Source of the DNA: Latrodectus hesperus
Lineage: Eukaryota > Arthropoda > Arachnida > Araneae > Theridiidae
Length of the DNA: 64,000 bases
NCBI GenBank assembly: GCA_037975125.1
Contig: CM075862.1
Coordinates: forward strand, 42,260,924-42,324,923
Direction: 5' to 3'
The position numbers and the translations under genes were made by a program. Shown here piece after piece: positions 15,937 to 51,397 of this stretch. The notes under the pieces were generated by a model that was not told the DNA's origin, did not search any database, and saw only the letters and a program-made list of their open reading frames with translations. The stretch's first letter is position 1. Each line of letters starts with the position of its first letter.

Positions 15937-16476
15937 GCAAAGTGTCCTAGTGAGTTTAGAATTACTTAATGATTTAAAATTTTGTTTGAGAGATAAGAAG
16001 GCCAGAAAAAAATAACTTAGAAAAAATAGGGTTTGGAAAATTTGAGAAATAAAGCTAAAATATTTATGAAACTGCCCTTAATAATCATGTAAAATAAATA
16101 CCTGGAGTAAAATAGGTAAATTTATACCTATAAAATCTCGTTTTTTAAAGAATCTATGAGTAAAAAGCTAAATTATTGTTAAAATTTGGTTGCTAATCAG
16201 GTAATAAGCTACCTGAACAAGAAAAATAGGTACAAATGTACATAAGAATTAGTAAAATTTGGGTTAAAATTTAGAAGTTCTTAAATGAAATGTAATTTTG
16301 AATTGTTTCAGGTAAATAAAACTACCTGTTTTAACTACTAAAACATGATTAGTAAAATGAAATAATTCTATTTCAATTTAGAATAAATATTTTTATACCA
16401 TTAAAAAAGAAATATTTTATATTAATTTAGAAAATCCTGAAATATTTTTAGAGAATTTTGATGAAGGACACTTTGC
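15937..16476 (-). repeat. Copy A: inverted-repeat-bounded cassette with five small palindromes
   Basis: The outer arms GCAAAGTGTCCT (15937-15948) and AGGACACTTTGC (16465-16476) are perfect 12-bp complements. Inside lie five palindromes. Number 1 (16086-16104) is imperfect, with CATGTA in place of CAGGTA. Number 2 is TAGGTAAATTTATACCTA (16113-16130). Number 3 is CAGGTAATAAGCTACCTG (16198-16215). Number 4 (16227-16244) is imperfect, with TACATA on the right. Number 5 is CAGGTAAATAAAACTACCTG (16309-16328). Centres 1 to 3 and 3 to 5 are each about 112 bp apart. The cassette sits in the predicted second intron of copy A. Confidence 0.8.
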
Positions 16477-16689
16477 ATTTTGTAATTTTTTTTCGAAGGA
16501 TGATGCTTTAGTTTTGTTTGTAGTGAAATCAATTTCTATATCATAAAATGTTAAAATGAATTGCAATCCAAAAATCTTCTTTTTGTAATGGTATCTTTTT
16601 TGGTAATATTTCTTCCAAAATGAGATTCTTTTTTTTTTAAATTTAGGCTCTATGTGGATTTTTGCTGTTATTATATCTTTCTTTTAATT

Positions 16690-16760
16690 TCTCTGGATTC
16701 AGTTTCCACTCCATCAAGCTTCGTTCTTTTTCTTTATTTTTACCATTCCATTCATTTTGC
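16690..16760 (-). other. Copy A: short conserved block near the start of intron 2
   Basis: About 70 bp on the minus strand (core GAAGCTTGATGGAGTGGAAA, then CTGAATCCAGAG) is strongly conserved with copies B (30910-30990) and C (51600-51680) inside otherwise diverged intron sequence. It is open here (S-L-M-E-W-K-L-N-P-E-K-L-K-E-R), but copy B has an in-frame TAG. It may be a splicing signal or a former exon. Its function is unknown. Confidence 0.5.
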
Positions 16761-16875
16761 TTAATCTTTTCCTTTTATATTTTTTACTTTTATCTAAAGG
16801 AAACGAAAGGACACATTTAAATTTAGCAAGAAGTAACAAATAATTATCCAATTTATTAAAAGACGTTTTACTTAC

Positions 16876-18941
16876 TTATTTTGAGGTTTTACCCCCTTTC
16901 TGCTTATGCTTAGATGTTACATATCTGAATCTCTTCCAGAATTTTCTCAAGAAACCTTGCTTCTCTTCAGATGTTACTTTTCTTTCAATATTTACCTTTG
17001 TTTCTTCACCTGCGTCTTCACTGTTGTTATCCATATCTTTAACAAAAATGTTTCCTTCCGTCTTATTTTCACATTGTTCTTGTCTTATTTGTTTGTTGAT
17101 GGTACTTACCTTATCCTCGGAAAATTTACCTTCGCTACTGTTTGAGCTCTCATAATTGTTTGTCCTTGATTTTGCCATTTCCATTTGTTCCTTCAGTACA
17201 ATCGACCAATCCCGAATCTCCCATGGTTCATTTGTTTCAGCTTCAGGATTTTTTGTAAACTCTGTTTTTAAATGATGTTGATTGCTATTATCTTTTTTTA
17301 AAGAATGTTCCATGAAATATTTTTCTTTCTCTATTTTTGATGTTGTAACTTGTTTTCCGTATTGATTGTTGTTATCATCTGTCTGTTTTTTATGGGTATC
17401 GTGAGTACAGTCGAGTCCTTCTGCTTTTTCATACCTGTTTGAACTATCCGAAATTTTCCTCATTAAGTTTTCCATTTCTAATTGTTCTTTGATAACAAAC
17501 GACCAATCTCGAAGGTCCCACGGTTCATTTGATACAGTTTCGCGATTTTCAAATTTGTTTTCAAGTTCAGTTTCCAAATGTTGGTCAAAATTATCATAAT
17601 CTTCAGAAGAATAACTTATAAAATCTGTTTCTTCTTCTTTTCCTGGTGTTGAGGTTTGTTTTCCATGAGGAATGTCGTTAACGTCAGTTTTGCCACTTTT
17701 TGCATCGTAAAGAAATTCTGTATTTTTTGTTGTATTGATTTTTGGATGAACTTTATTGCTGAGCATTTTAGAATCTTCTGAGATAGATCTTTTTTATTAA
17801 ATATTCCTTTTTCCTCATATTTCGCAGTCTTTCATATTTATGTTGTTCTTCTATGACGATTGACCATTCTCGCAGCACCCATGGTTGGTTCGACTCTGTT
17901 CCATTTTCGGCTTCATTGTCAAATGAGTTCGTGATATCTTTTTGATGTTTTTCATCCATTATAATGTTTCTTTCTGTTTTGTTGTCAAAATTATCCGTTA
18001 TATTACTTTGTTTCCCTTGCTCATTAGGAGAATTATTTTCTGCTGTTTCAACGACATTGATGTTACTTACTTCCAGCATACCATTTGGTGTGTCAGTGGA
18101 ATATGCTGTTTTTTCTAGATCTTTCTTTTCCAAATTGTGACCATTTAACAAATGGTTTACAGCTGTAAGGATGTCGTGATTTTTCTCAGGTAGTGCGATG
18201 TCCTTATGAGTTCTTAATGAAGGTATTTCACATTCCTGAGCCTTAAGTGAGTTCTCTGCAAAGTCATTTGTTGTTAATTCTCTAGAAGAAAAATATTCTA
18301 CAGATATGCTTTCTTCAGATATATTTGCATTTTTCTCTATTTCAAATAGAGATGTCAAAATATTTATGTCTCTATCAGAATGTCCTAAAGTCTTTGAGGA
18401 AACATTAACAATGCACTCGTTCTGATCGTCATATTCATAATGTAAATTTCCAATGTTTTGTATAGCTGTTGTTAAATTCGATTCAATGCATCTTTCATCA
18501 GAAACCTTTGCTTCTCTCAGTCCTTTATTTCCTTCTGTTTTTTCTGACATTAATGTTTGTCCAACCGTTAGAGAATCTTCAGTACTAATTTTCACTACAT
18601 GGTAAGTAGTGCTTTGATCTGGAGATTTATCACCTATCAACTCTTGACCGATGGTGTTTATATCAGGCACTTCTTCTTCCATATAATACGAAGTTTCATC
18701 TGTTATTTCAGCTTTTTCTGTTGGAATATATTGAGTTGAATTTTCTGACTGTTGTATGATGTTAAATGTTTCGTTTGATTTGTAGTTATTTTGAGGAGAC
18801 TTTGTTGATTCAAAAGCATTTATTTCGTGTTCATTTGATGTTTTATGCTTTCCATCGTTTGGACTCCTATCATTAGACAATGAGTCAATTGTTTCTTGTT
18901 CACATTCACTGTTATCCTTTCCATTCTTTCGCGCTTTCATG
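16876..18941 (-). CDS. Copy A of W-repeat family: large exon 2, frameshifted
   Basis: This is an unrecognised Asn/Glu/Lys-rich, low-complexity protein that looks largely disordered. The acceptor AG (18943-18942) opens the exon. The base C at 18941 completes an ATC codon with the AT left by exon 1, then MKARKNGKDNSECEQETIDS follows, matching copy B. Three W modules are present: QPWVLREWSIVIEEQ, EPWDLRDWSFVIKEQ and EPWEIRDWSIVLKEQ. The last two are 99 residues apart. The tail is FLRKFWKRFRYVTSKHKQKGGKTSK-like, basic and Lys-rich. The frame breaks at the A6 run at 17790-17795: as written, translation stops at 17768 (about 402 residues, one W module). With one A fewer the frame would run to 16876, about 699 residues including exon 1. 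An assembly error, a polymorphism or early pseudogene decay are all possible. The gene is a neighbour of, and co-oriented with, copies B and C. Confidence 0.75.
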
Positions 18942-19521
18942 CTAAAATAAAAAAATATATTTTTAGACGAATAGAAAATAGAAGTTTATTGTAATTTCAT
19001 TCACCACAAAAACATTCGCATCATTTTTTCTATTACAGCAATTCTTCCTATAACATGGTATAGTAAGTCCATGTTATCGGATTCTCGTAAAACGCGATCG
19101 TATAACCTCGTATAACGCGTTATGTACAAATGATTCACGTTTAACTTTTCACGTTAAAGGGTTTTTAAATTGAATATTAATGAAAAATGACCAAAATGTG
19201 TGCGTTTTATTAAAATTAAATAAAAAAAAATTGTAGAAATATAACTAAAAAACAGTTAATTTCAAATAAATCAAATAATTCTAAGAACAATTTCTCTCAT
19301 TGCATGTTTATTCGCTATAGGAACTATCTGAAATACAGTTCCACCTCTACATATTTTTTAACAGAATGTTCAAAAGTCAATAATACAATTTATAATTTTA
19401 TAGGAATACAATCAACACAATGTGCAAACGTACGCGAAATTTATTGTGAACTATACAAATTATTATAAATCATTCGCATAGATTATGTTAACACACATTA
19501 CGCTGATAATTAAAAAGAAGA

Positions 19522-19772
19522 CACAGGTGCCGTATAATGCATGATTTCAAATTCTGAGATTGGCGATTTTTTGGTGAATTTTCTTATGTATCTCTCACCT
19601 TCGTTTTTATTACGTCATACATATGGAGACCTATAAGAACTATGCAGAAAATTCTATTTTGGTAACCCTAGTATTTACGTCATCGTGCACGTCACGATAC
19701 GTCATCTTGGCAACATTTCTTCATCGCCAAAAAAATTCAGAATTTGGAATCATGGATTATACGGCATCTGTG
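19522..19772. mobile_element. MITE of the GCCGTATAATCC family, full-length, in intron 1 of copy A
   Basis: Terminal inverted repeats of about 35 bp are visible: the left end starts CACAGGTGCCGTATAATGCA and the right end, inverted, starts CACAGATGCCGTATAATCCA. The interior has three TACGTCA words (19611, 19677, 19699) and one CACGTCA (19688). It has no coding capacity. Related copies lie at 6343-6595, 53046-53112 (left end only) and 59998-60160. Confidence 0.85.
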
Positions 19773-20203: not shown

Positions 20204-22018
20204 TTATCTCAAGATCAGTAAAATCCAATCTACCACGTGAAAAAGCATGTTAGAAACTTTTTAGTGCTACAAAAAAAGAGAATATTTGGAAACAAAATTA
20301 TATTAGTCCATTACAGGAGTTTGAAACTTTTTGTATGAATTGCTGGTTGCCATTTTAAACATTATTTTATTGCTCGATACCATAAGATGATTTCATCTGT
20401 AATATATAGCAGGCCCTATAATCTAAATACTAATGCTATTTAAAAACTTAAAGATAACTATTTAAAAAGAATAAACAAGAGAAGAATTAAGAAAATGTGT
20501 TTCTAGGTTGTTTTAAAATTTTCAATTGATCTAATAATTGAAATTTGAAAAATTAGGAATTCTATATTTAATAGAAATGAAAAATAAGATGATAATTGTA
20601 CATAAATTCAATTTCCGTTCATGAGCTAGCAAGCTTGATAAAAAAATTTCAACATTTGGTCAGAAATTTTATTGATCTTATTGTCATAATAACTAACATG
20701 ACAAATATAAGGAGTCATATACATAGTAAGGTAATTTTCCATTTTAGGATGCCTTTAAACCACCACCAAAGGAAAAAAAATCATCAACGAGTTAAAAAAA
20801 ATTCGCCTTGCTTAACGTTTTTTTATAGCTTTATAGGAAACCGTTGACTTTAGTTACAATTCGAGCCTCGCTTGCATGGCTATGTACTCTGTAACCTTAA
20901 TATGGTAGTTTTTATTTCGAGACACAGCACGTGTTTCAAATTTCGTTGGTTTTTCATTACTGATAAGCATTTCTACTTCTTAATTTTTCTTTAAATATAT
21001 TTCCCCGGTTGGGAGTTGCCCATTAAGAAGTCTGCAATATATTTATTTCAAACTAGATGATTTTTTTTGAATAAAAAATTTAATATTTCAGTGTCTATTT
21101 TTTGGTCGGTGATTTAACGAAAAACCTTTGTTGATGGTTACTCGAAACGATACGCTACCTGTAAATATGATAGAATATTTTAATAAACTAAGACAACAGT
21201 TAAAATTGATCCTTTCTATAGTAGTATTTTAAAATAAATTCTGCAATAGAAAGAATCGATCATAACTATGGCTTTAATTTATCAAAAAATTCTTACAAGA
21301 AATCACAGAGGATAGAAGGATAAGCAATTAAGAATTAGTGAAAATCATGATGGTAATATTTAATCGATTGCTTGTTTTTTTATTTGCAAAAATATAATTT
21401 TTTGTTATAAATTGAAATTTTCCTAAGATTTATCAATAAGAAATTATAGGAAAATAATTTGTGAAGATATTTAGAAAATTTTAATTACACATTTAATTAA
21501 AGTAATAATTAAAAATAAGTGTAAGCAATAATATAATGACTATTATGAATAAAAAATGATCGCCATTTTAAATAATTTTATCTAAAGTTTCAGTATAATT
21601 TTCGAAAGATAAATTTCAAATTCATCTCCGATAGTAAATAAGCATTTTAATATTATTTAATGATGTATTATTTGAGTTATTAAACATTATTAAGCTAAAT
21701 TTGAATAACCATTTGGATACGGTTCACTAATAATTCATTTAATTATTTGTGTGATATTTCAACAATATTAAATTATAAATTATTTTCAAAGTCAAACAAT
21801 TTCATAAATCTGTGTCGTAATATATATACTTCATTTCTAATTTATTTAGAAATATTTGAATTATTCATAGTAAATAATTAAAATTTTATAAATAGGAGGC
21901 TGTTTGCTTCACTCTATAAAATTTATTTTAGAAAATTGTTTGACTTTAAAAGAAAAAATTTGTAAAAAAATACTATATGTAGACGAATTTGGGAATATTT
22001 AAAGTAATAATTACTTAC

Positions 22019-22053
22019 ATCTTATGTCGCATGAATTTCAGTAATCGAGACAT
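22019..22053 (-). CDS. Copy A of W-repeat family: exon 1 (short coding exon)
   Basis: ATG at 22053 opens MSRLLKFMRHK plus two bases (AT), then a consensus donor GTAAGT (from 22018). The same 35-nt coding exon occurs upstream of copies B and C with only a few changes, which is the main support for it. The intron to exon 2 is 3,077 bp, longer than in B (561) or C (712), partly because of a MITE and a tRNA-like insertion. TTCCAG directly precedes AATG in all three copies. This could be a 5'UTR or an acceptor site, in which case a further untranslated exon lies upstream. Confidence 0.7.
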
Positions 22054-22099
22054 TCTGGAAATTATATAAATGTTATAAAATTATACTATTATAGATTAG

Positions 22100-22260
22100 T
22101 TTGCGATATAATTGGTTTTACTCAGGGCTATTGCTGTGTAATATCACTATGGAAGATTATTTTACTTGTGGAGGGCAGAAATTGTCAACCTGTTGTCACT
22201 AAATTTGTGCAGAAAGGGGACGAAGTTGATTGTTTCACATTTGTGTTTAATGAAAGTCCA
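22100..22260 (-). promoter_or_regulatory. Copy A: conserved 5' flanking block
   Basis: About 150 bp upstream of exon 1 is conserved with B (33520-33660) and C (53745-53880). On the plus strand it reads GGAAGATTATTTTACTT, then CAACCTGTTGTCACTAAATT, then GCAGAAAGGGGACGA. It may be the core promoter and 5'UTR. No clear TATA box was identified. Confidence 0.55.
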
Positions 22261-22299
22261 TTGTTGCTTTTCCGTGATTGTTGGAAGGTTTTAATTTCT

Positions 22300-25200
22300 G
22301 ATATTTGCACTCATAAAAAAGTATGTTATTGTATTTATATTTGTATTATTCTATATTGTTGTCAATGACTGAAATTTAAAACAGAATAGATGTTATTGAA
22401 AATATATTATTATAATAATGATAAGTGAATTCAATAACCACCAGTCTCTCTGAGACGTGGGTTTGGACCTCATCGCTGACACGACTCTTCGCTTCTGATA
22501 GGACGCTGAATTGTGTTTTTGCCGAAAATTTACTAAGCTTCATTTTAGAAATCAATCATTTATTATCTTCTGTTATTGCACAGAATACAAAAATAAATTT
22601 ACTGGAATATTTTGTAAATGAAAACGGACAGTAACATTCTCAACAGTTTCGCTTTTTTTTCTTTCTCTCTCTCTTTTTTTTTCTTTTTTTTAATCTAGCA
22701 GCACAGTCCGCCCGTTTTTTTTTTTTTTACTTCTTTCTTAAAAAAATTCTTTTCACTGCCAGTCTAGGCCAACTCGCGTTCATCAGAATTTTAACATATA
22801 TAAGACTGTACTGGAGGTAAAAACAGAAATTCCCCAATAAGGCTACATTATATCTTCACAATGCTGGTAAATACATAATACCAGCTATAAGCAGCTTTTA
22901 TGACACTTGGAATAGAGGGGGAAATAGACTGTTTTGTTTATTAACGCCAATAGATTGAACTTTGGCCAGAAAAATTTTGATTTTTACTCTGCAGTTTCTA
23001 ATTGCTGTAAAATTTAATTTATTTAAGTTCAGAGTCTGATAACACAAAGTTTAGCTAAATTATTGAACCAGATTCATTACGATGTTTTAAATACAGTCAT
23101 TTATTTTCTGACAAATGATATGCTGGCATAAAACTAGAATTTTTCTGTTAAAATCCAAGACTTGCAGTTAGAAGCAGATAGAATCGGGTTTTGAATTGCT
23201 TCTTTTTATAATAAGGAAAATGAAAACATTATTATTATTATAATCGTACATTATTTATTTGCTTTTACTTTTCTGTATTTTACAGACGTGTTTTAAGCAT
23301 ATCATACAGGGGGATTTAGAATTTTCTTCTAGGAGGAGCTTTACAAAACCTTTACATAAAAATTAACTTCATGAGGTTAATTTAGAAACACTTATAGAAT
23401 AGATATGATGAAGTTGATGTCATTGACATACAATCATTTTTATAAGTTTTGTAATGTAGATAACTCTATACGACTAATACAAAAATGAATTAACATTAGT
23501 ATTATAATATGCGTTTATTTATTGTTTTCATGGTGGATTTTGCTAGAATCATGCATTATAAATTGTCTGAATAAACTTAATTTTGAAAATATTTACTCAC
23601 ATAATGATCTTATGTGGTTTCTTAGAAGAACTTGAGCTCTTAGATTTCCACTGTGTATGCACCGGTTCTTAAAATATATGAATCTAAATGAATGGCAAAG
23701 GTAACCATTGAATCAAATAAACTTGTTCTTAACAAAAGAAACAAATGAATTCTCGCATTGAAAGTAAATTTCACATTGAAATAGAATCTTCAACATCAAA
23801 TGAAGATGACGCAGAAGTGAAGGAGGTTGTAGTTCTGTAATTGATTTTATTCCAGTTCACAAAAAATATGGAATGTCGGATGCAGTTTTTTAGCTGTAAA
23901 GGATGATCACATAAAGCCTGTAGCAATGAAGAGCCGTATCATTAATGTTTTATTTTGGTTCTTATGATAAATATGTTCTCAGATTATACATGCACAGACG
24001 AAATAATACTGAGAAATATATTCAAATAATTAGTTTCATTATGCTCATAAAATAAATCTAATATTAGTGAAAAAGGGTAGTTTCCACCAGGAATTTTTTA
24101 GATCACCCATTTTATGAAAGATAATATAATAGATCCTTTTTTTAAGATTTACTTACTGTTGACATAGATGACCAAAAAAATAGTATTTCCAAAATTTTAA
24201 ATAGTAATTTCTATCATATATTTATTATGAAAGAAAAAATAAAACGCACATAAAATTGTACTTTATGCCAAAATAGAAAGAATCCATTCCAAATATATCA
24301 TTTCAAACAACAATTAAAAATTAAACATTTTAGGCCACCCATAAAAGCTAACATGTCATGACAAAACATGAAAATCATGAAATTTTGATGCAGAAAGTCC
24401 AGAAAGAGTACTTCTTTTAAAAAATAACAATAGGACAAAATTTTTTAGTCGAGATTAAAAATCAAATGAAAAATATTCTGCTAAATATCAAAGAAAGGCG
24501 AATTGTGATAATAAGTACAAAATAAATTGCTCTGAAAATACGACATAAATATAATCATTTGTATAAATTTACATCACATCGTATTTGCTAAACACTCGTT
24601 GGTGATTTGTGTCATCACGAATTTTGTTGGAAATTTTCAAATACTAAATTAAACAATAACAATATGGAAATATAAATTTCAAGGAATTTCATGGACACAC
24701 GTTTTTGTTGTCCATTTGAATTATTTCCAAGCTGTAGAAATCCGTTTTTATTTCAATATTCCCAAATCGGAGATACAGTATAATATTTTTATTGAAGCTA
24801 ATGCAATAAATTTCGCTTGCTCAAACCGTAATTTACAAAAAAGTTTCATTTCCTCTAAAAATATTGGATAAAAAGTTTGCGAAATTTAAGTTTCTAAAAG
24901 AAATGTTACTCGTGGATTTGAACAAACAATTAGAATTCACAATGAAATTTTTGCAACCATTTCAAGAAAAGACGGCCAGTTTATTATTTTAGATTATTTA
25001 AATGTAACCAAATATTAATCTAAAATTAAACAAGATGTATAATAACCTTCGCTTTAAGCAAATGGCGAAAACAATAGCTTTTCCTCAAGTGCAGTTGCAA
25101 TACAAATCTTTCTCCGAGATCCAATATATATAGTGCATTTGTGATATACGAAATTTGATTTTGTTCTCTTTCTTGTTTCGTCTATATTTGATCTGCAGCT

Positions 25201-26348: not shown

Positions 26349-26730
26349 AAGAAAAGAAATAACTGTTACTTAAAAATCCTCGATTAATACCATTCAATTA
26401 CCAAAAATATAGGGTATTAAATATTAGAGCTGTTCAGATTTAATCACCTGTGTTCAGCATCAGTTACAGTCTGATTCATCTAACATAGGTGCCGAAGGAA
26501 TACCTATGTTAGATGAATCAGACTGTAACCTATATTATAAAGAAAAGAAATAACTGTTGCTTAAAAATTCTAGATTAATACCATTCGGTTACCAAAAACA
26601 TAGGTGATTAAATATTAGAGCTGTCAGATTTAATCACCTATGTTCAGCATCAGTTACAGTCTGATTCATCTAACGTAGGTGCCAAAGGAATACCTATGTT
26701 AGATGAATCAGACTGTAACCTATGACCTTA
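26349..26730. repeat. Tandem duplication carrying two long hairpins
   Basis: A unit of about 190 bp is repeated twice (26349-26537 and 26538-26730). Each unit ends in a hairpin: at 26463-26529, GTTACAGTCTGATTCATCTA plus ACATAGGT, an 11-nt loop, then the exact complement, giving a 28-bp stem. The second hairpin (26653-26719) differs at one stem position that would form a G-U pair and at one loop base. Just before it, a second stem of about 14 bp (ATAGGTGATTAAAT with ATTTAATCACCTAT) forms in unit 2 and imperfectly in unit 1. It may be a foldback mobile element or a small-RNA precursor. Confidence 0.85.
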
Positions 26731-29044: not shown

Positions 29045-29465
29045 TTGCTACTACAAAGATAAATAAATTGAAAAGTAAAAAATGATTGAATTGATGAAAT
29101 TTAGATTTATGCTAAAATTAATATGCGTATCAATATGCATAATTAATGCATTTTATAAACTATCATTGTGTTCAGGGGAATAATCGGAAAAACTCTTATG
29201 TAGAAAAATGCAAAATCAAGAGCACATTGTGTTTTATTGCTTGTGTATTGAATCACATTTTCCAAAAATGAATATAGCAATAATAAACAAAACTGGAATT
29301 TTGAAATATTTATTAAGCCGAAAAATATAGCCGAAAATAGTAAGAAAGATATAAAAAATAAAAATAAAATAAAAAAATTGCCTTCATCTTGCCAGTAAAT
29401 TTAAAGAATATTTGCCAAAAAATCATTTCTTCGTTCATTTTCCTTCACCTGGGCCGCTCCGTGGG
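29045..29465 (-). repeat. Copy B: partial duplicate of the 3' terminal exon and flank
   Basis: This segment repeats 29565-29940, starting at TTTAGATTTATGCT and including AAAACTCTTATGTAGAAAAAT, the poly(A) block (AATAAA at 29314-29309) and part of exon 3. Homology stops abruptly after CACCTGGGCCGCTCCGT at 29462. It is a local duplication of about 0.5 kb that gives copy B a second potential cleavage site. Confidence 0.75.
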
Positions 29466-29769
29466 ATTATTAATTTACGCTAATCTACACATTTAATTTG
29501 TGGTAATCTAGCAAGTGAGCTTACTTGTAACGTCTAATTGTTAGCTATCGAGATGGTTTTCCTTTTTTTAAATTGATTTGTTCGAATGAAATTTAGATTT
29601 ATGCTGAAATTTTATATGTATCAGGTACATATTTAATGCATTTTATAAGCGATCATTGTATTCATAAATAAATCGAAAAACTCTTATGTAGAAAAATTCA
29701 AAATCATTCATTGGTGTTGAATTGAATCACATATTCCAAAATGAATATGGAAAAAATTAACTAAACTGG

Positions 29770-30017
29770 AATTTCGAAATATTTATTAAGCCGAAAAATA
29801 TAGCCGAAAATAGTAAGAAAGATATAAAAAAGAAAAAATATAAATAAAATAAAAAATTGCCTTCATCTTGCCAGTAAATTTAAAGAATATTTGCCAAAAA
29901 ATCATTTCTTCGTTCATTTTCCATCACCTGGGCCGCTCCGTCCATTCCGACAACTTTCTGACAGGCTCCAACATCTGATGCATTCCGAAACTGAATCCAA
30001 GAGAACGTTCTCTTCTA
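29770..30017 (-). other. Copy B: predicted terminal 3'UTR exon with poly(A) signal
   Basis: It begins after an ACAG acceptor (AG ends at 30018). The conserved core is GATTCAGTTTCGGAATGC, then GTTGGAGCCTGTCAGAAAG, then GGACGGAGCGGCCCAG, and it ends at AATAAA (29787-29782). The frame that is open in copy C meets a TAG as its first codon after the acceptor here, which favours an untranslated exon. Intron 2 would be 1,101 bp, almost the same as in A (1,095). Confidence 0.55.
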
Positions 30018-30133
30018 CTGTCTGATATTTCTTTCATCTTCAATCTTGCTGCTCTATCCCTTTTATTTATAGTTTAAGATTGATCATACTTTTTATATTT
30101 TAATTACTATTTTATTTATTTATTTTTTTGATA

Positions 30134-30685
30134 GCAAGGTGTCTTTGAGAATTTAAAAATGTCTATTGAAGCATAATTTTGTGAGAATGAGATATACATC
30201 ATGAATTAATAATTTGGGAAATTAGAAAAATTTTGAAAATTAAAGTAAACATTTTAATGAATTTTTAAGTTATATAAACTAACTTTTTTGTAAACCAGGT
30301 AATAAATACCTGTGGAGAAGTAGGTAAGGATATACCTATGTATCTGCTTTATATGAAAATAAAAATTTTAAAGATATAATCTATTGATAAAAATATGAAT
30401 ATTATTCAGGTAATTAGCTACATGTTGTGTGTGTGCTGAAAAAATAGGTAAGAATATACCTAAATACTATTTAAAACTGAGTAAAAATTTAGATTAATTG
30501 AAAATTTTAAACTTATTTCCAGGTATATAAAACTACCTGCTCTCAAACAGCGTATTTCATAAAATTTAAAAATTTTCTATTTAGAATGAATATTACTAAT
30601 AGCAGTTATAAGAAAAATTTTGATGTAACTTTAAAGAAAGAGGATGAAATTCAGTTTAAGAAAATTTTGAGAGAAAACACCTTGC
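30134..30685 (-). repeat. Copy B: inverted-repeat-bounded cassette with five small palindromes
   Basis: The outer arms are GCAAGGTGT (30134-30142) and ACACCTTGC (30677-30685), with further near-pairing inward. The palindromes are CAGGTAATAAATACCTG (30296-30312), TAGGTAAGGATATACCTA (30321-30338), an imperfect CAGGTAATTAGCTACATG (30407-30424), TAGGTAAGAATATACCTA (30445-30462) and CAGGTATATAAAACTACCTG (30520-30539). The order and spacing match copies A and C. Confidence 0.8.
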
Positions 30686-30909
30686 ATTTTATATGATTTT
30701 TGTGAAGATTGCTGTTTCTTTAATTTTTCTTTATTTCGGAGCTAGCTTCTGATTATATACGTTGTTAATATTGTAATTTGTAATTATAAATTCTTCCCTT
30801 CTTGCTTATAATTGTTTCGTAAATTTGCTATTTATTTCCTCATTCTAAGCTTAAGTTTATATTTTAATTTTGACATGGTATGAAATGCTTATTGTTCTCT
30901 TAAAATTTT

Positions 30910-30990
30910 TTTTGCGTTCTCTGGATTCAGTTCCCACTATATCAAGCTTCGTCCATTTTCATTCTTTTACCATTCCTTTCCTTCTACTTT
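30910..30990 (-). other. Copy B: short conserved block near the start of intron 2
   Basis: This corresponds to 16690-16760 and 51600-51680. On the minus strand the core is GACGAAGCTTGATATAGTGG, then GAACTGAATCCAGAG. The frame open in copy A is interrupted by TAG, so a coding role is unlikely in this copy. Confidence 0.5.
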
Positions 30991-31121: not shown

Positions 31122-32868
31122 TTATTGGGTTTCACCCCCTTTCTGCATGGTTCTTGGTTTTAAACGCCTGAATCCTTTCCAGAATCTTCTCAAGAAAGTT
31201 TGTTTCTTTCCAGATGTAACATTTTTTTCAGTATTCACTTCAATTTCAACATTCATGTCATCATTGATGTTATCCTTGTCTTCAACAAAATGTCTTACTT
31301 CTGTTTTTCTTTCCCTATAAGAGTTCTCTTCACATTGTTCTTGTCTATAAGAGTTCTTGTCACATCGTTGTTGTCTGTGTTTATTAGAGATACTTACTTT
31401 TTTGTTGGGAGACTTACCTTCATGGGCATATTTCTCTGATATTAAGTTTAAAACAGGTGTTTTTTCGTTACTGTTCAGTCTTTCACTAACGTTCATCCTT
31501 AGTTTTGCCATTTCGATTTGCTCTTTGATTACAGCTGACCAGTCACGAAGCTCAAACAATTTGTTTTCTTCACAATTCCCATAATTTTTTTCAACGTCTA
31601 TATTCAAACGATGTTCAACTGCTTTATGTTTCTGTAAAGTATGGTCCATGTAAAATGTCTCATTTTCTACTCTGGATGTTGTATTTTGTTTTTCATATTC
31701 AGTGCTGTTATCATTAACCTTCTTATCATTTGTATTATGATTACCTTCTAGTCCTTTTCCTAATTTTTCATAACTTTCATTGTTATCAGAAATGTTTGTC
31801 ATTAAATTTTCCATTTCATTTTGTTCTTTGAGAACGATTGACCAGTCACGAACGGTCCATGCTTCGTATGATACAAATTCGTGATTTTCATTGTTGCTTG
31901 TTTTCAAATGTTGTTCAACATTATCGTTTTCTTTTGAAGCATAATTTGTGGCATATATTTCTTTTTCTTTTTCGGGTGTTGTACTCTCCTTTTCCCATTC
32001 GTCGTTGTCTACCATTTTATTTTTTGTATCATAAGTAATTTCTATATCCTTCTCTGATATTTGTATTTTGGTGTCTTCTTTATTGTTCAATGTATCTTTT
32101 GAGTGAGGTCTTTTTATTGGATTCGAAAATTCTTCAAATTTTTTCTTCTCCGTTATACTTAGTGTTTCAAACTCATTTTGTTCTTTTATCACGATGGACC
32201 AATCACGCAACAACCATGGTGGATTGAACTCTGTTTCGTTTTCTTTCACTTTATTAAAATCGTTCATACTTCCTTTAAGACAGTCATCGTAGGTGTTAAT
32301 TTTATCAATTGTATTGTCAAAGCTATCACTTAAATTATTCTGTACCCAGTGCTCATCTAAATTATTATTTTGAGCCATGTTGATGTTATTCCCTTCTGGA
32401 ACATTATTAGAAATATCTGTGTAATCCGATAGTTTCGCTTGATTTTTATCTTCAAATGTATAATTATTTGATGTATATACTTCTTCTAAGCAGATGTCAT
32501 TATTTGCTTTCGGCTGTTTGTTATCTTTGTAAACTCTTGATGCAAGAATATCACATTCTTGATCATTAGGAAAACTTTTTCGATCGACTCGATTGTCATT
32601 GGACATTTCTTCTTCAAAATCATTTAAAGTTTCTTTTGATGATTCAGCTTTCTCCGTATGATTAGTTGGATTTATATTTTCTGAATCTTGAATGACGTAA
32701 GATGATTCACAGTTATTTTGAAAGGAAATTTTTGAGTCAATTTCTGCCTTATTTGATGTTGCAAAATTTGCCTGTTTTCGATCGTGTTGACTCCTATCAC
32801 AAGACAATGAGTCAACTGCTTCATCTTTAGTTTCATTATTTTTCTTAGAATTCTTTCTTGCTTTCATG
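31122..32868 (-). CDS. Copy B of W-repeat family: large exon 2, intact
   Basis: This is the best-preserved copy. The acceptor AG precedes C at 32868, which completes an ATC codon with exon 1. Then come MKARKNSKKNNETKDEAVDS and an open frame to TAA at 31122, giving 593 residues with exon 1. I know no family with these features. Three modules are present at about residues 230, 349 and 450: PPWLLRDWSIVIKEQ, EAWTVRDWSIVLKEQ and KLFELRDWSAVIKEQ. The third has F in place of the first W. Each is preceded by about 100 residues with a DNxxEYEK-like acidic/polar linker. Near residues 507-530 a 10-residue unit with C-[DE]-[KE]-N-S-Y-R is duplicated in tandem. The C-terminus is basic and aromatic (FLRRFWKGFRR, then QKGGETQ). 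There is no signal peptide or membrane segment, so a cytoplasmic or nuclear location is only a guess. A donor GTAAGT starts 3 nt after the stop. Confidence 0.82.
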
Positions 32869-33429
32869 CTGAAATAGAATACAAAATTCAAAGAAATTTT
32901 TTAGTAAGAAAAGAGAAATCATAATCATTCTAATAAATGTTTATGATTTCTCTGAATTCCCTTCTTGAAAAAAATTTTTTGCATTGATTTTGCAACTAAC
33001 ACTTAGCTTCAACCATTGTCTAAAATAAAAACTACAAAATTTCATGGAAATTGACATCAAATAACATCAGTAATTATAATGTTTAAAATTGTACTTTTAA
33101 AATTTTTTCTAATAATACTTTATCACATTTTAATAAAATTATTAATATATTTAAATATTATTTGAATGTTTTAATATTATCATAATTATATAAATTATAG
33201 TTATTTTAATACTTGTTCATGATGTAAATGAAAACTGCGTTTAATATTTCATTATTAATATTTAATTACTTCTCATATAACTTTTTTCAAATTCAAGTAT
33301 TCTGATATATTACTTTAGATGTATATATAACAAATACTTGAATTCTAAAGTATTTTAAAATATAATTTCACTCTAACAAGATTTCAGTTATTTAAGATGA
33401 ATATTAAAAACATTGTGAATAATACTTAC

Positions 33430-33464
33430 ATTTTATGTCGCAAGAATTTTAGTACACGAGACAT
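33430..33464 (-). CDS. Copy B of W-repeat family: exon 1 (short coding exon)
   Basis: ATG at 33464 opens MSRVLKFLRHK plus AT, with donor GTAAGT from 33429. The intron to exon 2 is 561 bp (32869-33429) with an AG acceptor. The phase is 2, so the junction codon ATC (I) leads into MKARKN. The predicted N-terminus is strongly basic and could form an amphipathic helix. The exon is conserved in position and sequence in all three copies. Confidence 0.75.
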
Positions 33465-33514
33465 TCTGGAAGTTATAAATGTAATAAAAATGTACTATTG
33501 CAGATTGGATTGAA

Positions 33515-33660
33515 ATGTACTATGCTTTACTCAGGGCTATATATTTTCAGTGTATTATCACTATGGAAGATTATTTTACTTGGAGGGTAGAAATGGCCAA
33601 CCTATTGTCAATATATTTGTGCAGAAAGGGGACGAGGTTGATTGTTTCATATCTATGGTC
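33515..33660 (-). promoter_or_regulatory. Copy B: conserved 5' flanking block
   Basis: This shares GGAAGATTATTTTACTTGGA, CCAACCTATTGTCAA and GTGCAGAAAGGGGACGAGGT (plus-strand reading) with copies A and C, at 50-200 bp upstream of exon 1. It probably holds the promoter and transcript start. Confidence 0.55.
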
Positions 33661-33729
33661 CCTTGCATTTCATTGTTATTCTTCAGTAATTGTTGCAAGA
33701 CTTGATTTCGTTTTGTTACATAAGTAAAT

Positions 33730-36250
33730 GGAGTTCATTGCATTTCATAAATCATTGTTACAAATAATTTGAATTGTGGGAAAGATAACAATTTATATAT
33801 TGAACATAAAATATTCTTAAATTTAGTATCACTGCTATTTTGATAGCGAATTTTAAAAAATAATAAGCAATTAAATGAATGAATAACGATTTGAAAAATG
33901 TTTCAATTAAAAAAAATCAGACCATATAATTGTTTGAAGAAAATTCAGTTTTTAAAGTTAATTTACTAATTTAAATTAAATAAGAAAAACAATCGATTCT
34001 CATTCATAAAACATTTTTAAAAATTTTAGAGATTAAATTTTGAATATGCAACTGAGAGGCCTTAACTTTTTGCATACCGTCCACTTAGTTTAGTTATTTT
34101 TTATAGATTCTTATCTAAAGGATTTTATATAGAAACTATCACTTCAATGATGAAAGTTCCTTCTTTAGTCTATACTTTAATTAAAAAAATGTTTACTTTA
34201 TACCTTTATTAGTGATTCTAATAATCAATTAGTGGAAAGATGGTCAGAACAAGGTAGATAAATAGACTCATTATCTCACCAGAATGAGAGTAGAATTTAG
34301 CTTATATATGTCAGAAAACTCATAGAAGTAGACACTTGCAGACATCAGGTCATTAAGTGTAGAATTCTTGGTGGAATCAAACCAATAGTAGATTGTCTTA
34401 CGTATCATCACCAATGTTTTGAATAGTTTAACTAGAAAAGTGTTTCTAACTGCTGGAAGTTTTACTTTAATCAAGTACAGTTTCTGATAATACCACTTAC
34501 AGCTATTTAAATTATTGAGCCGGATTTTGACCATGTTGGAAATATTTTAAGGCTTACATTTTGTCAAGTGGCGATGTGGTATATAAGGGGAATATTGTCA
34601 GCCGAACAGAACCAAATAGGATCCAATTTTGGCTTGAGATATTTTTAACGCCAAAAAAAGCGTCAAATTCTGGCTATCAAGCTCCGTTCGAAACAAAATG
34701 TAAACTTAAGTATTAGTTACTAGAAATTTTAAAATTTATTGCCAAATGTTTAGCCAAATTTTATTCTAAACAAAGTGGTACTCAATTCTACACCGAACAA
34801 GCTTTAATGTTACATAACTATAAATTTTATTAAACTTGTAAGACTATGTACAAAAAATTAAAAATTCAGTAAATAGTATTTTTGCATTACAATATAACAG
34901 TGTAACTGTTGTACTGAAGTAAATATACAGTATTAAATAAAATGTAATGTGCATTATATATCAGGAATTAAAATATTTTGAACAGGAAATTTTTTATAAA
35001 CTTAAAAATTTAGATTTAGAAAGTGAAATATCATAATGCAATCTAGTAAATCTAGTAAACAGGTTCTAATAAGGATAAAAATGAGCTTTAGAAATAATGA
35101 AAATTCAAATTAAAAATTGTGTTCAAGAAAATTATTTAAAAGATTTTTTAGTAGTAAAAAAACAAAATGTTTCACTAAAAACACGATATACATTGGATAC
35201 CGTGCTCATTGAATACATCTATATTTTAATCATCAGTGGTACAAAAGATCTTGGTAATTTGTGTGTTTACATTTCTTATAAATTATTCATAAAAAGTATG
35301 AAATTTGTGTTATCCATTCGAAATCATTTCTCATCAGTACGCATGAGTTAACATCAGGAGATCCAAAATCTCAGAACTAACATAATAATTTTGCCTGAAC
35401 ATTAAATATAGTTCCAGCGTTTCATCAAAATTCAAAGACGCCTTTTTATTTTCGAAAATAATATTTATATTTAAGTAAATGACATTACTAAAATTTCAAA
35501 CACATTACTGCATCAAAATTTGCAAAAATTTGCCTTCAAAAATTATTGTTTCGTAAAGCATCATCCTCTAGGCAAACAAATAATAATAAATAAAATAAAA
35601 TGAAATAAATCTTTTTTTTAGGATATTTGAATGATTTTAACCACACATGTTAACCTTAAACTAAGCAGATATGTAAACTCCTTTCCCACAGTGTTAGATG
35701 TTTTTCAAAATAAGCTTCAGTCATATATAGCTCGAATGTCAACAGTCTAATTTTTTGGCTTTTATTTCCATATTTTGTTGATTTTCTTAGCATCCATAAC
35801 CCTTGCCAATTTTCAAACAACAACTTGAAATAAACATAGGTTATTAATGCTTCTTTACACTTTAATCACTAATTACTTCTCATAGTATATAAATATTAAT
35901 AAAGATTATTGAATTTCTTTTTTGTGATTAATTATTTTTATGTTAATATATAAAATTATAGCGTAGTCTTACAAAAAGTGTCATTATGATCCTAAGAAAA
36001 GATAAGGTTAATTTCTTCGCAATAACTTTTCGATAATGTAAAGAACTTTTGTAGTTCACTAGAGATAAAAAATGCATCCTTGCCTTATTCAAACGGGAAC
36101 AAGTGAGTGATTATTTATTTGTCTTCTCAGGGAATTTTCTGGCATTTATTCCAGCTCAATTTCCTAATTTTAGAGGATTGTGGGAAGCTAGTGTCAAGAG
36201 CTTTAGAACATGAACTTACTTTTTAGGAGTTATTTACTATAACTGCTGAG
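33730..36250. other. Gene-poor AT-rich spacer
   Basis: No gene, RNA gene or recognised repeat was found. The open frames of 65-87 codons have no domain. Confidence 0.5.
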
Positions 36251-41338: not shown

Positions 41339-41801
41339 GGAATAGTTCCTGTTTTAAACCAATTGATTGATAAATTTCATTAATAAATGCGTTATCTAAA
41401 AAATATCACATTGACATTGATATAATAAGGAAAATTAGTCAGCAAGCATTTAAATAATCGTACACTACATAAAAAATAATAACGCATAAAGAATATCATA
41501 CGAATAATTTACACACGTAAAATACGAGTATAACCCCTTATTTTGGAAAAATACTAAATTTTTTGTTTTAGTGATATTCATTAACTTAATTTCTGAAATG
41601 TAAATAAGTATTGTGAATTTAATAAAATGGTGACAATTCGTTATTTTGGAAAAAATGACGGCATTTATAATTTATAGGGGTGTTCACTTATGAAATTTTG
41701 TTCAAAATGATAATAGGAAGCATGGAATAAATTATTTTTTTAATACAAATCCCGACTGAAAACGTAAAAATATTTTTAATATTGTAGAAAAAAAACACGC
41801 C

Positions 41802-41882
41802 GACGAGGATGGGATTCGAACCCACGCGGGCAGAGCCCAATGGATTAGCAGTCCATCGCCTTAACCACTCGGCCACCTCGTC
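41802..41882 (-). tRNA. tRNA-Ser (anticodon GCT), second copy
   Basis: The sequence is identical over 81 bases to the gene at 9290-9370, with the same arms, GCT anticodon and intact A and B boxes. On the minus strand TTTTTTTT follows about 7 nt after the 3' end and should terminate polymerase III. Its 5' flank (41883-42115) is followed by a diverged duplicate that includes the tip of another tRNA copy. Confidence 0.96.
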
Positions 41883-42115
41883 ATGTTAACAACTCTTATT
41901 ACAAGCTATATAAATTATTGTCCCGTAAAAATTTTATTGCTGCTACTTTATGGATTTGCTTAGCTGTTTCCCAAGATACTGCGTTAGCATTTCTGCACAT
42001 TTACGACAGTCCAAATTTTCTCATAAAACTTGGTTGTAAAATATTTTATTCATAATATCATTCAATTGATTATATTAACCAATGAATATAACATAAGGGT
42101 TCATTTGTTATACTA

Positions 42116-47274: not shown

Positions 47275-47340
47275 ATCACTATTTTATATATATAGTGATA
47301 AACACCCTGCATATAAATATATATATATATATGCAGGGTG
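47275..47340. repeat. Two adjacent hairpins at the transposon's left boundary
   Basis: GTTTATCACTAT and ATAGTGATAAAC pair around a short AT loop (47271-47303). Directly after it ACACCCTGCATATA (47302-47315) pairs with TATATGCAGGGTGT (47328-47341), whose right arm is the transposon's own end. An inverted copy of the terminal 9-10 bp thus sits just outside the element. Confidence 0.75.
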
Positions 47341-48905
47341 TTTAAAATTAAACGCACAGTACTCAGAGGCTCATAGCTCCAGTTCTACTGAACGGATCCG
47401 AATGAAATTTAAAATTTACGTTATGTGGAACATGCGCTCGAGGATTTTGCAATAAAAAAGGTTAAAATTCTCGCCAATAGATGGCGCTGTACTACGAAAA
47501 CCATATGCCAATGTATAGCGACTGTATTCTGTATCTAAAAGAGAGATGCATGGTTGAAAGGAATCATTCGTCCGCAGTGAACATGCCGCTGAACAAGAAG
47601 GAACGCGCATTCATCGTAAAACTGTTTTATCAGAATGAGAGCAATGCTTCGGCAGCTCTCCGTGCTTATCGGCGGATGAAAAACTTAAGAGAAGGCCCCA
47701 TGTCCAGCAGTGCCGTTAAGTGCATGATTCGGAAATTTGAAGAAACCGGTTCCCTAGATGTTGTTCCAGGAAGAGGACGACGTGCAACATGGCCGGCAAC
47801 TGTAGATGAAGTTGCAATTGCAACAGCTGCTGCAACTGCAAGTTCTTCCAATGTGTCTGTAAGTGGCCGCTCAATAGCACGAACAGTGAATATTCCATGG
47901 GCAACTGTGCGTATGATTTTACGCAAAATTTTGAAGCTCTACCCGTACAAGATGCATTTCGTGCAACAGTTGAAACCTCACGACTACTCTGCACGTATGG
48001 ATTTTGCCTTGTCTTTTCTGGCGAGGATGCAAGTCAATGACAATTGGCCGTCGCATATCTTATGGACAGACGAGACTCATTTTCATTTAGATGGTGCTGT
48101 GAACACGCAGAACTGACGCATTTGGGGTTCCACCAATCCTCATGCCATGCAACAACAGCCGCTACATTCCCCATACGTCACCGCAGGGTGTGGCTTCACG
48201 GCGAACTTCATTTTGGGCCCGTACTTCTTCGAGGAAGTTAGAGGGAACGGGTTTGTTCGGTGTACCGTCACCAGTGACCGCTACGCTAGACTCATGGAAG
48301 AACATGTTGTCCCAGGGTTAAGGCAACGAGGCTGTTTGGCCACCACAGTCTTCATGCAAGATGGAGCAACTGCTCATACGGCACGACGTGCGAAGACTGT
48401 GATTCAAGCTCACTTCTCTGATGAACGCGTCATCTCGCAGACTTTCCCCATTGCCTGGCCAGCAAAGTCACCAGATCTAAGCCCTTGCGACTTCTGGCTG
48501 TGGGGTTTTCTCAAAGATCGCGTCTATCAAGGAAGTGTAACTAATGAAGCAGAGTTGAAAGCGTCCATCGTACGCCACGTCTCATTAATTCATCCCGATA
48601 TGTTGCGTGCGGTCGTTGAACATGCGATCGTACGCTTTCAGCATATTGTTGACCGACAAGGTAGGCACGTAGAGCATACGGGTGTGTAATTCAATAGACC
48701 TTCCTTTATTCTTTGAATTTTTAGTGTTATCTTTCTTCTTACGTCATTGCAGCGCCATCTATTGGCGAAAACTTTAACCTTTATTATTGCAAAAACCTCG
48801 AGTGCATGTTCTACATAACGTATATTTTAAATTTCATTCGGATCCGTTCAGTAGAACCGGAGCTATGAGCCTCTAAGTATTGTGCGTTTAATTTTAACCA
48901 CCCTG
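47334..48905 (+). mobile_element. Tc/mariner-superfamily transposon, nearly intact, 1.57 kb
   Basis: Terminal inverted repeats of about 157 bp (47334-47490 and 48750-48905) are roughly 90% identical by eye. They start CAGGGTG, then TTAAAATTAAACGCAC, and end inward at GCCAATAGATGGCGCTG. The element lies between two TA microsatellites, consistent with TA target choice. One transposase gene fills the interior. The similarity of the arms and the almost open gene suggest recent activity. Confidence 0.9.
47583..48689 (+). pseudogene. Tc/mariner-like transposase (DUF4817-type N-terminus) with one premature stop
   Basis: The likely start is the ATG at 47583 (MPLNKKERAFIVKLFYQNES). The frame is also open upstream to 47481, but that part overlaps the terminal repeat. 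Domain order: an N-terminal helix-turn-helix of the DUF4817 kind (to about residue 45), a second DNA-binding part with the GRGRR linker, then a DDE/D catalytic domain. The catalytic domain has WTDETHFHLDG (first Asp), VFMQDGATAHTARRAK (second Asp) and AWPAKSPDLSPCDFWLWGF (third Asp). I count about 42 residues between the second and third acidic residues, more than the 34 of mariner. A single TGA at 48114-48116, between VNTQN and RIWGS, interrupts an otherwise continuous frame. The position is where related proteins have a non-stop residue, so it looks like one point mutation. Readthrough or a sequencing error are alternatives. Confidence 0.88.
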
Positions 48906-49038
<133 letters not shown>

Positions 49039-49089
49039 CAACACTCAGGTATGTATATTAAAAGGAAAATAATGAAGCACACCAATCGT

Positions 49090-50360
49090 ACGGCCGCTAA
49101 AAACTACTTTGTGAGTTAAAGATGGAGATAAAATATTTCAATAGTATGTATCAAAAAGTATATATTTTAATAATATTTTCTAAAACCTTTTTAAAAAAAT
49201 GTTGTCCATTAACAAATATTAAAAAAAAATTTCCATTGAACAAGTCATAAAATCTCTAAAAGATATATCTTTTCTCATGTTCACCTATGATTGATATATA
49301 TAAATACTAAAAAAACATTTAAATTCCAGATTTTTTTTCTTAATTTCTATTTTTATTTGGGTATCTACTATTTTTTTCATTTAAAAATATGAGGTCAGTG
49401 TTTTTCGCTTGTAGAGGAGATGTCATTTCTAAATAATATATTTAGATCATTTCTGCATTTGTTTACTACTGTAATATGAAATAAACAGAAGTATTTTAAT
49501 GAGGAATGTTGAAATTTTAAGACGAACAAAAATTTATTTTGAACAAACATAATAAGCATTAAACATTCATTATTTATGTGTTTTTTCTGGAAAATTATTT
49601 GATCTGGTATGTAAATGAGATAATTAATTATATTTAGGTTAGATATATGCTGCAAGATACATATATATATAAAATAAAATCAAAATAAGAACTTTCTGAG
49701 AAAACAATTTAGTTATAAAAAGAATTTCTTCTGTTTTTCTGATTATAATTTTATTGATTAAATCATTTAGAAAAGGATCAATTCAGATTACTGATTAATT
49801 TTTAATAAAATTTTTATGATTGCAAAACATAAATGCTATTGAATAATGAAAGGGTTAAGCTTTCAAAACCGTTTAGCAGCTACTTAAAAGTTCAAAGTCA
49901 ACTTGAAATATATACGCTGAGTTTTGAGAGTTTTCTATAAAATGGTGCACCATTTTAATATATATTTTTATTAGGAATATGTCCAAGCAGTGTCTATTCA
50001 TTAGGTAAGCATGCAATATATAAGAGAAATAATTTCTTGATTTCTTCACATTTATGAAATAGACAAACCGATTCAGCTCTATGTGTTAATAAAATTTTAC
50101 AATTCTGGTTTGTAGGATGTTAGCTTTTCTTAGGATGCAAGATTATTTCCATTTTATTTTGAAATCAATCTGTTCAAACGAAATTTATATCTAAGTGCAA
50201 ATTTTTGTTATATCTACCAATGACGTATTTTAAGACCAATAAAAATATTTATAAGATATCGTAACAAAACTTATTTAGAAAATGTGATCTAATTAAGTGT
50301 ATTTATCAAATTTATTGTATGTGTATTGAATCAATAATTTCAAATAAGTATTAAAAGTGC
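49090..50360. other. AT-rich spacer downstream of copy C
   Basis: No gene was supported. The last 200 bases resemble the sequence downstream of the copy B 3' end (TTCAAACGAAATTTATATCT; GTGTATTGAATCA), so the duplicated unit extends a little past the poly(A) site. Confidence 0.5.
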
Positions 50361-50374
50361 GAAAATAAAACAAA

Positions 50375-50629
50375 ATGGAATTTTGAAATATTTATTAAGC
50401 CGAAAAATATAGCCAAAAAAAAACATAAGTTATATAAAAAAGAAAAATAAATAAAATTAAAAAAATTTGGATCCGTCTTGCCAATCAATTTAAGTTTTTT
50501 TGCCGAAAGTTTTTTAATATTCCATTCCTTTTCTTTCACCTGGGCCGCTCCGTCCATTCGGATGACTTTCTGACAGGTTCCAACATCAGATGCTTTCCGA
50601 AACTGAATCTGAGACATCTTCTTTTTCTT
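50375..50629 (-). other. Copy C: predicted terminal exon, with open 88-codon frame and poly(A) signal
   Basis: The acceptor CTACAG ends at 50630 and AATAAA lies at 50396-50391. In this copy the conserved core is open from the ATG at 50617: MSQIQFRKASDVGTCQKVIR, then MDGAAQVKEKEWNIKKL, running on into a hydrophobic AT-rich tail that is probably not real coding. A consensus-like GCCCAG-GTGAAA could also act as a donor. Because A (frameshift) and B (TAG) cannot encode the same peptide, I favour an untranslated last exon. A short peptide made only in this copy cannot be excluded. Confidence 0.5.
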
Positions 50630-50805
50630 CTGTAGTTTCTGACTCTTAAGTTCAATCTTTTTTTGACTACTTTCTTAGTTCAATCTCCTGTTGGACAGCC
50701 TTTTTGTTAAATTGTTTTTACTCATATCTATTGTGGACAGTTAAAAATTTACCTGTTTTTTTTTAACATGAATAATGTTTTTTTTATATTTTACTGTTTT
50801 TTTAG

Positions 50806-51397
50806 GTAGGGTGTTTTTGTGAATTTAAAAGCACATAATATTTGTTGAATGATAATTTTGCGTAAAAATAAATTAAAAATCAAAAATTTAGAGTAGAGAA
50901 TTTTGAGGATTAAAACATAATTTGTAAAGAATTTAAAAATTTCTAACTGACTTTAGTGACCAGGTATTTACTACCTGGGATACTACCTGGGAAAATAGGT
51001 AAATATATACCTAAAATATCTACTGTTATAATTGAATTTTGAAAAGTTAAATGAATGTTATAAAAATATGATGGCTGTTCAGGTAATAAGCTACCTGTAA
51101 AGGAAAAATAGGTACAAAAGTACCTAGAAATAAATGAAAAACTGAGTAAAAATTTAGACGTTCTGAAATTGAATTTAATTTTTTAACTGATATCAGGTAT
51201 ATAAAACTACCTGCAAAATCTACTAAAATAAAATGAATAATAAATACTTATATTTAAATTTTAAATAACTGATACTTGAAATATTGAAAAGGTAAATTTT
51301 GACATTAATTTGAAAAAAAAAAGAAAAAAAAACAGAATATTAATTTTATTTTAAGAAAATTTTAAATAAGAAAATTTTAATTAAGAAAACACCCTAC
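50806..51397 (-). repeat. Copy C: inverted-repeat-bounded cassette with five small palindromes
   Basis: The outer arms GTAGGGTGTTTT (50806-50817) and AAAACACCCTAC (51386-51397) are perfect 12-bp complements, differing from A and B on both sides at matching positions. The palindromes are CAGGTATTTACTACCTG (50961-50977, with an extra TACCTG at 50984-50989), TAGGTAAATATATACCTA (50996-51013), CAGGTAATAAGCTACCTG (51080-51097), TAGGTACAAAAGTACCTA (51109-51126) and CAGGTATATAAAACTACCTG (51194-51213). All five stems are intact here. Confidence 0.82.

Follow-up and report, generated by a model that had tools for sequence, protein, structure and literature searches.

Introns can carry long-range pairs of complementary boxes by their splice sites, as in the insect docking and selector type and in conserved intronic complementary boxes, and multi-hairpin scaffold RNAs are known from the Xist A-repeats and the roX stem-loops of flies. 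Here we describe a locus of the spider Latrodectus hesperus that has likenesses to both. The window, by which we mean the whole stretch of DNA analysed, covers 64,000 nucleotides (nt) of contig CM075862.1 (GCA_037975125.1, positions 42,260,924 to 42,324,923) and contains three tandem paralogues on the minus strand, identified by BLASTN between the copies (A, B and C). In each copy, a predicted intron of the 3' untranslated region (3'-UTR) holds an array of five short palindromes enclosed by a 12-bp stem, P2, and by a further long-range stem, P1, outside it. We tentatively favour a reading in which the minus-strand transcript folds into a large structured RNA domain with the array at its core.

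Like the paired intronic boxes, the locus has two distant complementary boxes in one intron, compensatory change, and one box near a predicted splice-site region. It differs from them in having two nested stems around five near-identical hairpins, in its placement in a predicted 3'-UTR intron and in having no known alternative exons. With the Xist A-repeats and roX it shares several near-identical short hairpins, diverged AT-rich linkers and an arrangement suited to multiple copies of one protein, whereas the sequence of the array is different, a covarying stem closes it, it sits in the 3' region of a protein-coding gene and it has no Rfam match. The half-site CAGGTA/TAGGTA is one that we take to resemble the CAGGTA sites of the ZEB/Zfh1 or Zelda type in DNA, but here the half-sites face each other as inverted dyads, which always follow the order C, T, C, T, C and are enclosed by covarying RNA-like stems. 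Only two tRNA-Ser genes reach the gathering threshold in an Rfam 15 search of the whole window, and the array matches no family at that threshold. In a permissive search (E ≤ 5), copy A returned five matches, every one well short of gathering, of which the best was a microRNA family at 16116-16241 (E 0.26, 22.1 bits against a gathering threshold of 85); copies B and C gave none at E ≤ 1.

Palindrome arrays in three paralogues

Every copy has five palindromes of the CAGGTA/TAGGTA type, which follow one another as C, T, C, T, C. Twelve of the 15 are exact, and three carry a single mismatch (A#1, CATGTA..TACCTG; A#4, TAGGTA..TACATA; B#3, CAGGTA..TACATG); apart from these, the shared ordered series described in the initial annotation is confirmed. 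So is its statement that the outer pair, C-G or T-A, is kept position by position (15/15). Loops are 5-8 nt long in all 15 palindromes, as annotated: 7, 5 and 5 nt for #1 in A, B and C, 6 nt for #2, #3 and #4 in every copy and 8 nt for #5 in every copy. The proposed C-to-C period of about 112 bp agrees with measured distances of 111-119 bp (T-to-T, 113-124 bp), and the identities reported for #3 (18 bp, A and C) and #5 (20 bp, B and C) also hold. Positions 15937 and 51397, the limits originally given, are the outermost bases of P2 in copy A and copy C, respectively.

The palindromes are far denser than in randomised sequence, a comparison that the initial annotation had proposed. Exact matches to [CT]AGGTA(N3-12)TACCT[AG] occur 12 times in the window, every one inside the three arrays, and not once in 20 order-1 Markov sequences or in 20 of order 2 (N4-9). 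When one mismatch is allowed, 18 places in the window qualify (the 15 array members and 26486, 26676 and 50738) against 0-2 per Markov sequence. Half-sites number 64 in the window. The three P2 interiors contain 28 of them, 27 as palindrome arms and one (50984, copy C) as a local duplication; the other 36 are elsewhere. A motif-blind search for 6-bp inverted repeats (at least two G+C, loop 5-8, which leaves aside AT-only repeats) found nothing in the P2 interiors but array palindromes, some also in a shifted register. Taken one copy at a time, it recovered three, four and five palindromes in A, B and C. The density of such repeats is 7-10 per kb in the P2 interiors and 1.0 per kb window-wide.

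The letters of the palindromes are strongly conserved. Within the P2 interior, 52 of 54 palindrome stem columns (both arms of #2-#5 and the right arm of #1) are identical in the three copies, compared with 17 of 26 loop columns (#2-#5) and 207 of the 429 remaining ungapped columns. Because the palindromes had been picked for being shared, the count was repeated with the motif-blind arms, where identity is 36/40, 46/48 and 57/62 columns in A, B and C, against 226/476, 216/480 and 205/506 columns outside them. The arms are thus far more conserved than the rest without reference to the motif, and the conservation is therefore real.

The regular spacing had been read as 2.5 tandem units. As a history this is not borne out, though the regularity itself is real: within each copy, the spacers of unit 1 and unit 2 (g12 against g34, g23 against g45) show no homology (permutation p 0.08-0.64 in six tests). 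Between copies, the long spacers can mostly be aligned (z-scores of 5.0-6.3 for g45 and 1.3-5.1 for g23), and the short g12 and g34 give z-scores of 0-1.5. The 2.5 units therefore represent either a regular placement of motifs or a duplication of such age that nothing but the motif survives.

A 100-nt direct repeat elsewhere in the window (26434-26533 and 26624-26723, 97% identical) is largely palindromic by eye and contains TAGGTGCC..ATACCTA.

Nested long-range stems and their interpretation

P2 is a 12-bp stem whose arms lie 516-568 nt apart and close the array in each copy. Of its 36 cells, 35 are Watson-Crick, and four pairs are changed on both sides between copies (double changes); on the minus strand all 36 are paired, counting one G-U. 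P1 consists of 12 + 5 pairs with one bulge, and its arms are 913-983 nt apart. On the minus strand, all 51 of its cells are standard pairs, with two double changes (C-G to U-A and G-C to C-G) and one one-sided change to G-U. In copy A, the P1 5' arm lies at the edge of a conserved intronic block, W. Sliding the partners by 1-3 columns lowers the paired cells of P1 plus the palindromes from 98% to 18-38%.

A strict search for stems in the same columns of a free MAFFT alignment of the three copies yielded a single triple, P1. A looser search that tolerates misalignment yielded 36 triples, among which P2 and P1 are the best two (we went through the 30 best of the 36; the others score lower and are mostly AT-rich or parts of the same stems). 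Ranked by stem score within single copies, P2 and P1 are the best two in copy A, fifth and fourth in copy B, and first and fifth in copy C. Local column shuffling (200 rounds) gave best 12-bp stems of 27-33 of 36 cells, whereas the real alignment has two stems at 35; an initial set of 30 shuffles contained no stem with at least 34 cells and none with at least three double changes. Only two other stems with a double change were enumerated, both of them AT-rich plus-strand stems (16037/16645 and, locally, 16032/16046). With three sequences and an anchored alignment, the predicted long-range RNA structure thus appears to covary above chance at P1 and P2. In folding predictions, P2 is present in the minimum-energy structure of the P2-bounded piece of each copy on either strand, with 8/12 pairs in copy B, plus strand, and all 12 in the other five cases. 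The 12-bp part of P1 has a predicted mean pairing probability of 0.79-1.0.

If the array is indeed the core of an RNA domain, P2 would close an inner loop that holds five short hairpins of near-invariant sequence. P1 would tie block W to the start of the conserved terminal exon, and it could either hide the 3' splice site or bring it closer, shortening the effective distance between splice sites. Together, the two stems would loop out the intron. The hairpins may serve as docking sites for several molecules of a single RNA-binding protein with specificity for CAGGUA/UAGGUA stems, and the docked protein could tune splicing or 3'-end formation of the host mRNA. We further speculate, though we consider it rather improbable, that the arrays represent an undescribed class of animal cis-acting RNA, in which nested long-range stems display five sequence-fixed, alternating C/T hairpins for multivalent docking within a 3'-UTR intron, so that one protein coordinately controls tandem paralogues. 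If the RNA reading is right, this would be a structured RNA absent from Rfam whose hairpin letters stayed fixed while most of the intervening sequence drifted. Its binding partner would be directly retrievable with hairpins of 17-20 nt. The nested stems would make it easy to test whether long-range RNA pairing controls a terminal intron, here in a gene family without relatives in the libraries searched.

Several observations weigh against an RNA domain of this kind. The covariation rests on three sequences, and the alignment was anchored on P1, P2 and the palindromes themselves. Free MAFFT misplaces one P2 arm of copy C, though the flanking CATTTT matches A and B, and P2 was not recovered by the strict anchor-free search that found P1. 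One of the 200 column shuffles produced a stem with at least 30 of 36 cells and four double changes, equal to P2. For P1 plus the palindromes, with P2 left out, 54 of 500 shuffles of the 3' letters reached the observed covariation, which makes this a weak control. The initial annotation had called the array a structured element and proposed covariation analysis; the four double changes of P2 and the two of P1 bear this out, and the palindromes do not, with no double change in 30 pairs and one broken cell in three of the 30. Each of the three mismatches replaces G by T at the third base of a half-site (about 0.003 under a uniform model), as if a recognition site tolerated another letter there rather than as if pairing had been relaxed.

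Folding adds to these points. When the longer, P1-bounded domain is folded freely, none of the six minimum-energy structures (three copies, two strands) contains P2. Enforcing it in A, B and C costs 0.9, 8.0 and 11.9 kcal/mol for the minus strand and 13.7, 20.9 and 6.0 for the plus strand (in copy B the enforced fold left out the one pair that is not Watson-Crick). Thermodynamics alone, as modelled, does not select P2. Hairpin probabilities in free folding range from 0 to 0.99 (the 0.0 of A#1 is invalid, having been placed one base off). Fold z-scores are modest, from -1.45 to -3.89 (30 shuffles each), and are lower on the plus strand in all three copies (-2.3, -3.9 and -3.2 in A, B and C, against -1.9, -1.5 and -2.6 on the minus strand). 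Both cells among the 29 pairs of P1 and P2 that are not Watson-Crick are A.C on the plus strand and G.U on the sense strand of the gene. The strand evidence thus splits, the two G-U cells arguing for minus and the z-scores for plus. The predicted splice site is a further weak point, as no good polypyrimidine tract marks it at either candidate AG in the three copies. Pyrimidine content is 0.56, 0.62 and 0.44 (A, B, C) before the conserved ATTCAG within the P1 3' arm. It is 0.38, 0.25 and 0.31 before the AG at the edge of conservation about 17 nt beyond that arm, where identical columns go from 4-10/10 to 0-3/10 in the manner of an exon edge.

The serious rival to an RNA domain is a cluster of dyad sites acting as DNA, with facing [CT]A(G/t)GTA half-sites for a transcription factor of the zinc-finger type; the intron would then be an enhancer or silencer, and P1 and P2 perhaps a separate RNA feature. 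We regard this as a real possibility, though not a likely one. The arm columns of the motif-blind count are conserved as letters and not just as pairs, the palindromes lack covariation between copies, and the three mismatches fall at one half-site position. Letter-for-letter conservation indicates sequence-specific recognition at least as much as base pairing. Yet the half-sites are dyadic in 27/28 cases while their spacing varies by position from 5 to 8, which is unusual for a rigid dimer, the outer letters match as a pair in 15/15, and the covarying P2 and P1 around the array are needless for a DNA enhancer. The lower plus-strand z-scores and a conserved plus-strand CTTTCTG(A)CAG, a possible splice acceptor, would suit a structured RNA of the other strand, either antisense or an independent non-coding RNA that overlaps the gene's 3' end and has P1 for a terminal stem. 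The two cells that become G.U on the minus strand only, and the conserved minus-strand AATAAA with its flanks at the distal end, make this clearly unlikely.

A decaying transposable element, inserted before the gene triplication, with P2 as terminal inverted repeats and the palindromes as sub-terminal ones, would account for (nearly) perfect P2 arms with the same boundary in 3/3 copies, and an element of the mariner type is present in the window. We consider it very unlikely, given that four paired double changes in 12 positions are unexpected under neutral decay, that no target-site duplication is seen by eye beside P2, and that the palindromes are better conserved than the sequence around them. 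Searched against the window by BLASTN, each domain also retrieves its two counterparts and, apart from these, just short pieces of the copy B domain (53 bp at 56602 and 23 bp at 20512). Compensation could also arise from mutational bias without selection, by template switching during replication that corrects imperfect inverted repeats. This is a known process for short quasi-palindromes, but the P2 and P1 arms, 516-983 nt apart, are far for it, and it leaves the identical palindrome letters of diverged paralogues unexplained; it seems to us highly improbable.

Three narrower ideas were rejected. Decoy 5' splice sites or U1 mimicry, suggested by the likeness of CAGGTA to CAG|GTA, do not fit, as the minus-strand letters past +3 (for example in GTAGTT, GTAGCT and GTATAA) are off the donor consensus. 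A hammerhead-like reading of the P1 region was dropped by eye, with core bases missing. Pairing of donor and palindrome was rejected as a shared mechanism: copy C has a donor-like site past its stop codon (51773-51787) that matches the complement of palindrome #2 over 14 of 15 positions, but A and B have donors of another form. Two donor-like TAGGTAAGTA sites lie close together after the stop codon of copy C (51773-51813).

Host genes and the rest of the window

The paralogues share a layout of a short first coding exon, a long exon with repeats resembling PWxxRDWSIVIKEQ, a stop codon, a GTAAGT donor, a diverged stretch and a conserved block with AATAAA (Table 1). The stop codon precedes the donor by 0, 3 and 6 nt in A, B and C, and 1.1-1.2 kb of mostly diverged sequence separates the donor from the conserved 3' block. 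From this layout, the array is presumed to lie within a 3'-UTR intron. The 3' block was rejected as coding sequence because its indels between copies are not in threes.

Table 1 Coordinates of the palindrome arrays, long-range stems and host-gene features in the window
Feature	Copy	Position	Strand	Details
Palindrome array	A	16086..16328	-	#1 16086-16104, #2 16113-16130, #3 16198-16215, #4 16227-16244, #5 16309-16328
Palindrome array	B	30296..30539	-	#1 30296-30312, #2 30321-30338, #3 30407-30424, #4 30445-30462, #5 30520-30539
Palindrome array	C	50961..51213	-	#1 50961-50977, #2 50996-51013, #3 51080-51097, #4 51109-51126, #5 51194-51213; all five exact
Stem P2	A	15937..15948 with 16465..16476	-	GCAAAGTGTCCT/AGGACACTTTGC
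Stem P2	B	30134..30145 with 30674..30685	-	GCAAGGTGTCTT/AAAACACCTTGC; one G-U if minus strand
Stem P2	C	50806..50817 with 51386..51397	-	GTAGGGTGTTTT/AAAACACCCTAC
Stem P1	A	3' arm 15750..15767, 5' arm 16690..16706	-	17 pairs, one bulged base
Stem P1	B	3' arm 29987..30004, 5' arm 30918..30934	-	One G-U; three more pairs possible (to 30007 / 30915)
Stem P1	C	3' arm 50599..50616, 5' arm 51600..51616	-	Two double changes against A and B
First coding exon	A	22019..22053	-	MSRLLKFMRHK, GTAAGT donor; homologues start at 33464 (B) and 53688 (C)
Main coding exon	A	16876..18941	-	Bounded by acceptor-like AG and stop codon
Main coding exon	B	31122-32868	-	Bounded by acceptor-like AG and stop codon
Main coding exon	C	51813-52941	-	Bounded by acceptor-like AG and stop codon
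Conserved 3' block, presumptive terminal 3'-UTR exon	A	15537..15784	-	AATAAA at 15564-15559
Conserved 3' block, presumptive terminal 3'-UTR exon	B	~29759-30018	-
Conserved 3' block, presumptive terminal 3'-UTR exon	C	~50368-50630	-

The presumptive terminal exon contains a GC-rich 24-bp stretch, TCACCTGGGCCGCTCCGTCCATTC, that is identical in the three copies (15688-15711, 29924-29947 and 50536-50559). It is probably non-coding, because the neighbouring indels are not in threes. In copy B, part of the 3' block is tandemly duplicated (29265-29462 and 29738-29941, step 473-479 bp, pieces 89-93% identical), and one of the duplicates ends just after CACCTGGGCCGCTCCGT. Block W lies at 16678-16760, 30906-30980 and 51588-51660 and reads GAAGCTTGAT..GGAAACTGAATC on the minus strand; the P1 arm is its inner edge only.

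Two overlapping open reading frames (ORFs) in different frames divide the main exon of copy A (17768-17793), and copy B has a single open frame. Among the best conserved regions between the paralogues (73-80%) is the one upstream of and including the first coding exon (22006-22337, 33418-33814 and 53630-54024), which is possibly the promoter and 5' UTR. No relatives of the host protein were found at E ≤ 10 among 7995 candidates scored, and none of the four host-gene ORFs among six ORFs scanned has a Pfam match. The copy B host ORF has no match in PDB at E ≤ 1 and no viral-contig relative.

The window is AT-rich, with 21-37% G+C per 2 kb. Outside the gene copies, a 53-bp piece (56602-56654) is 81% identical to the stretch that follows palindrome #4 of copy B (30461-30510). 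A mariner-like element at 47328-48911 has DUF4817 ORFs above the Pfam cut-off, a DDE_3 match below it and 162-nt inverted ends that are 93% complementary, and a second mariner-like ORF (14126-14515) was recognised by eye only. The two tRNA-Ser(GCT) genes (9287-9371 and 41799-41883) are 32.5 kb apart, and the 93-nt stretches that surround them are 98% identical.

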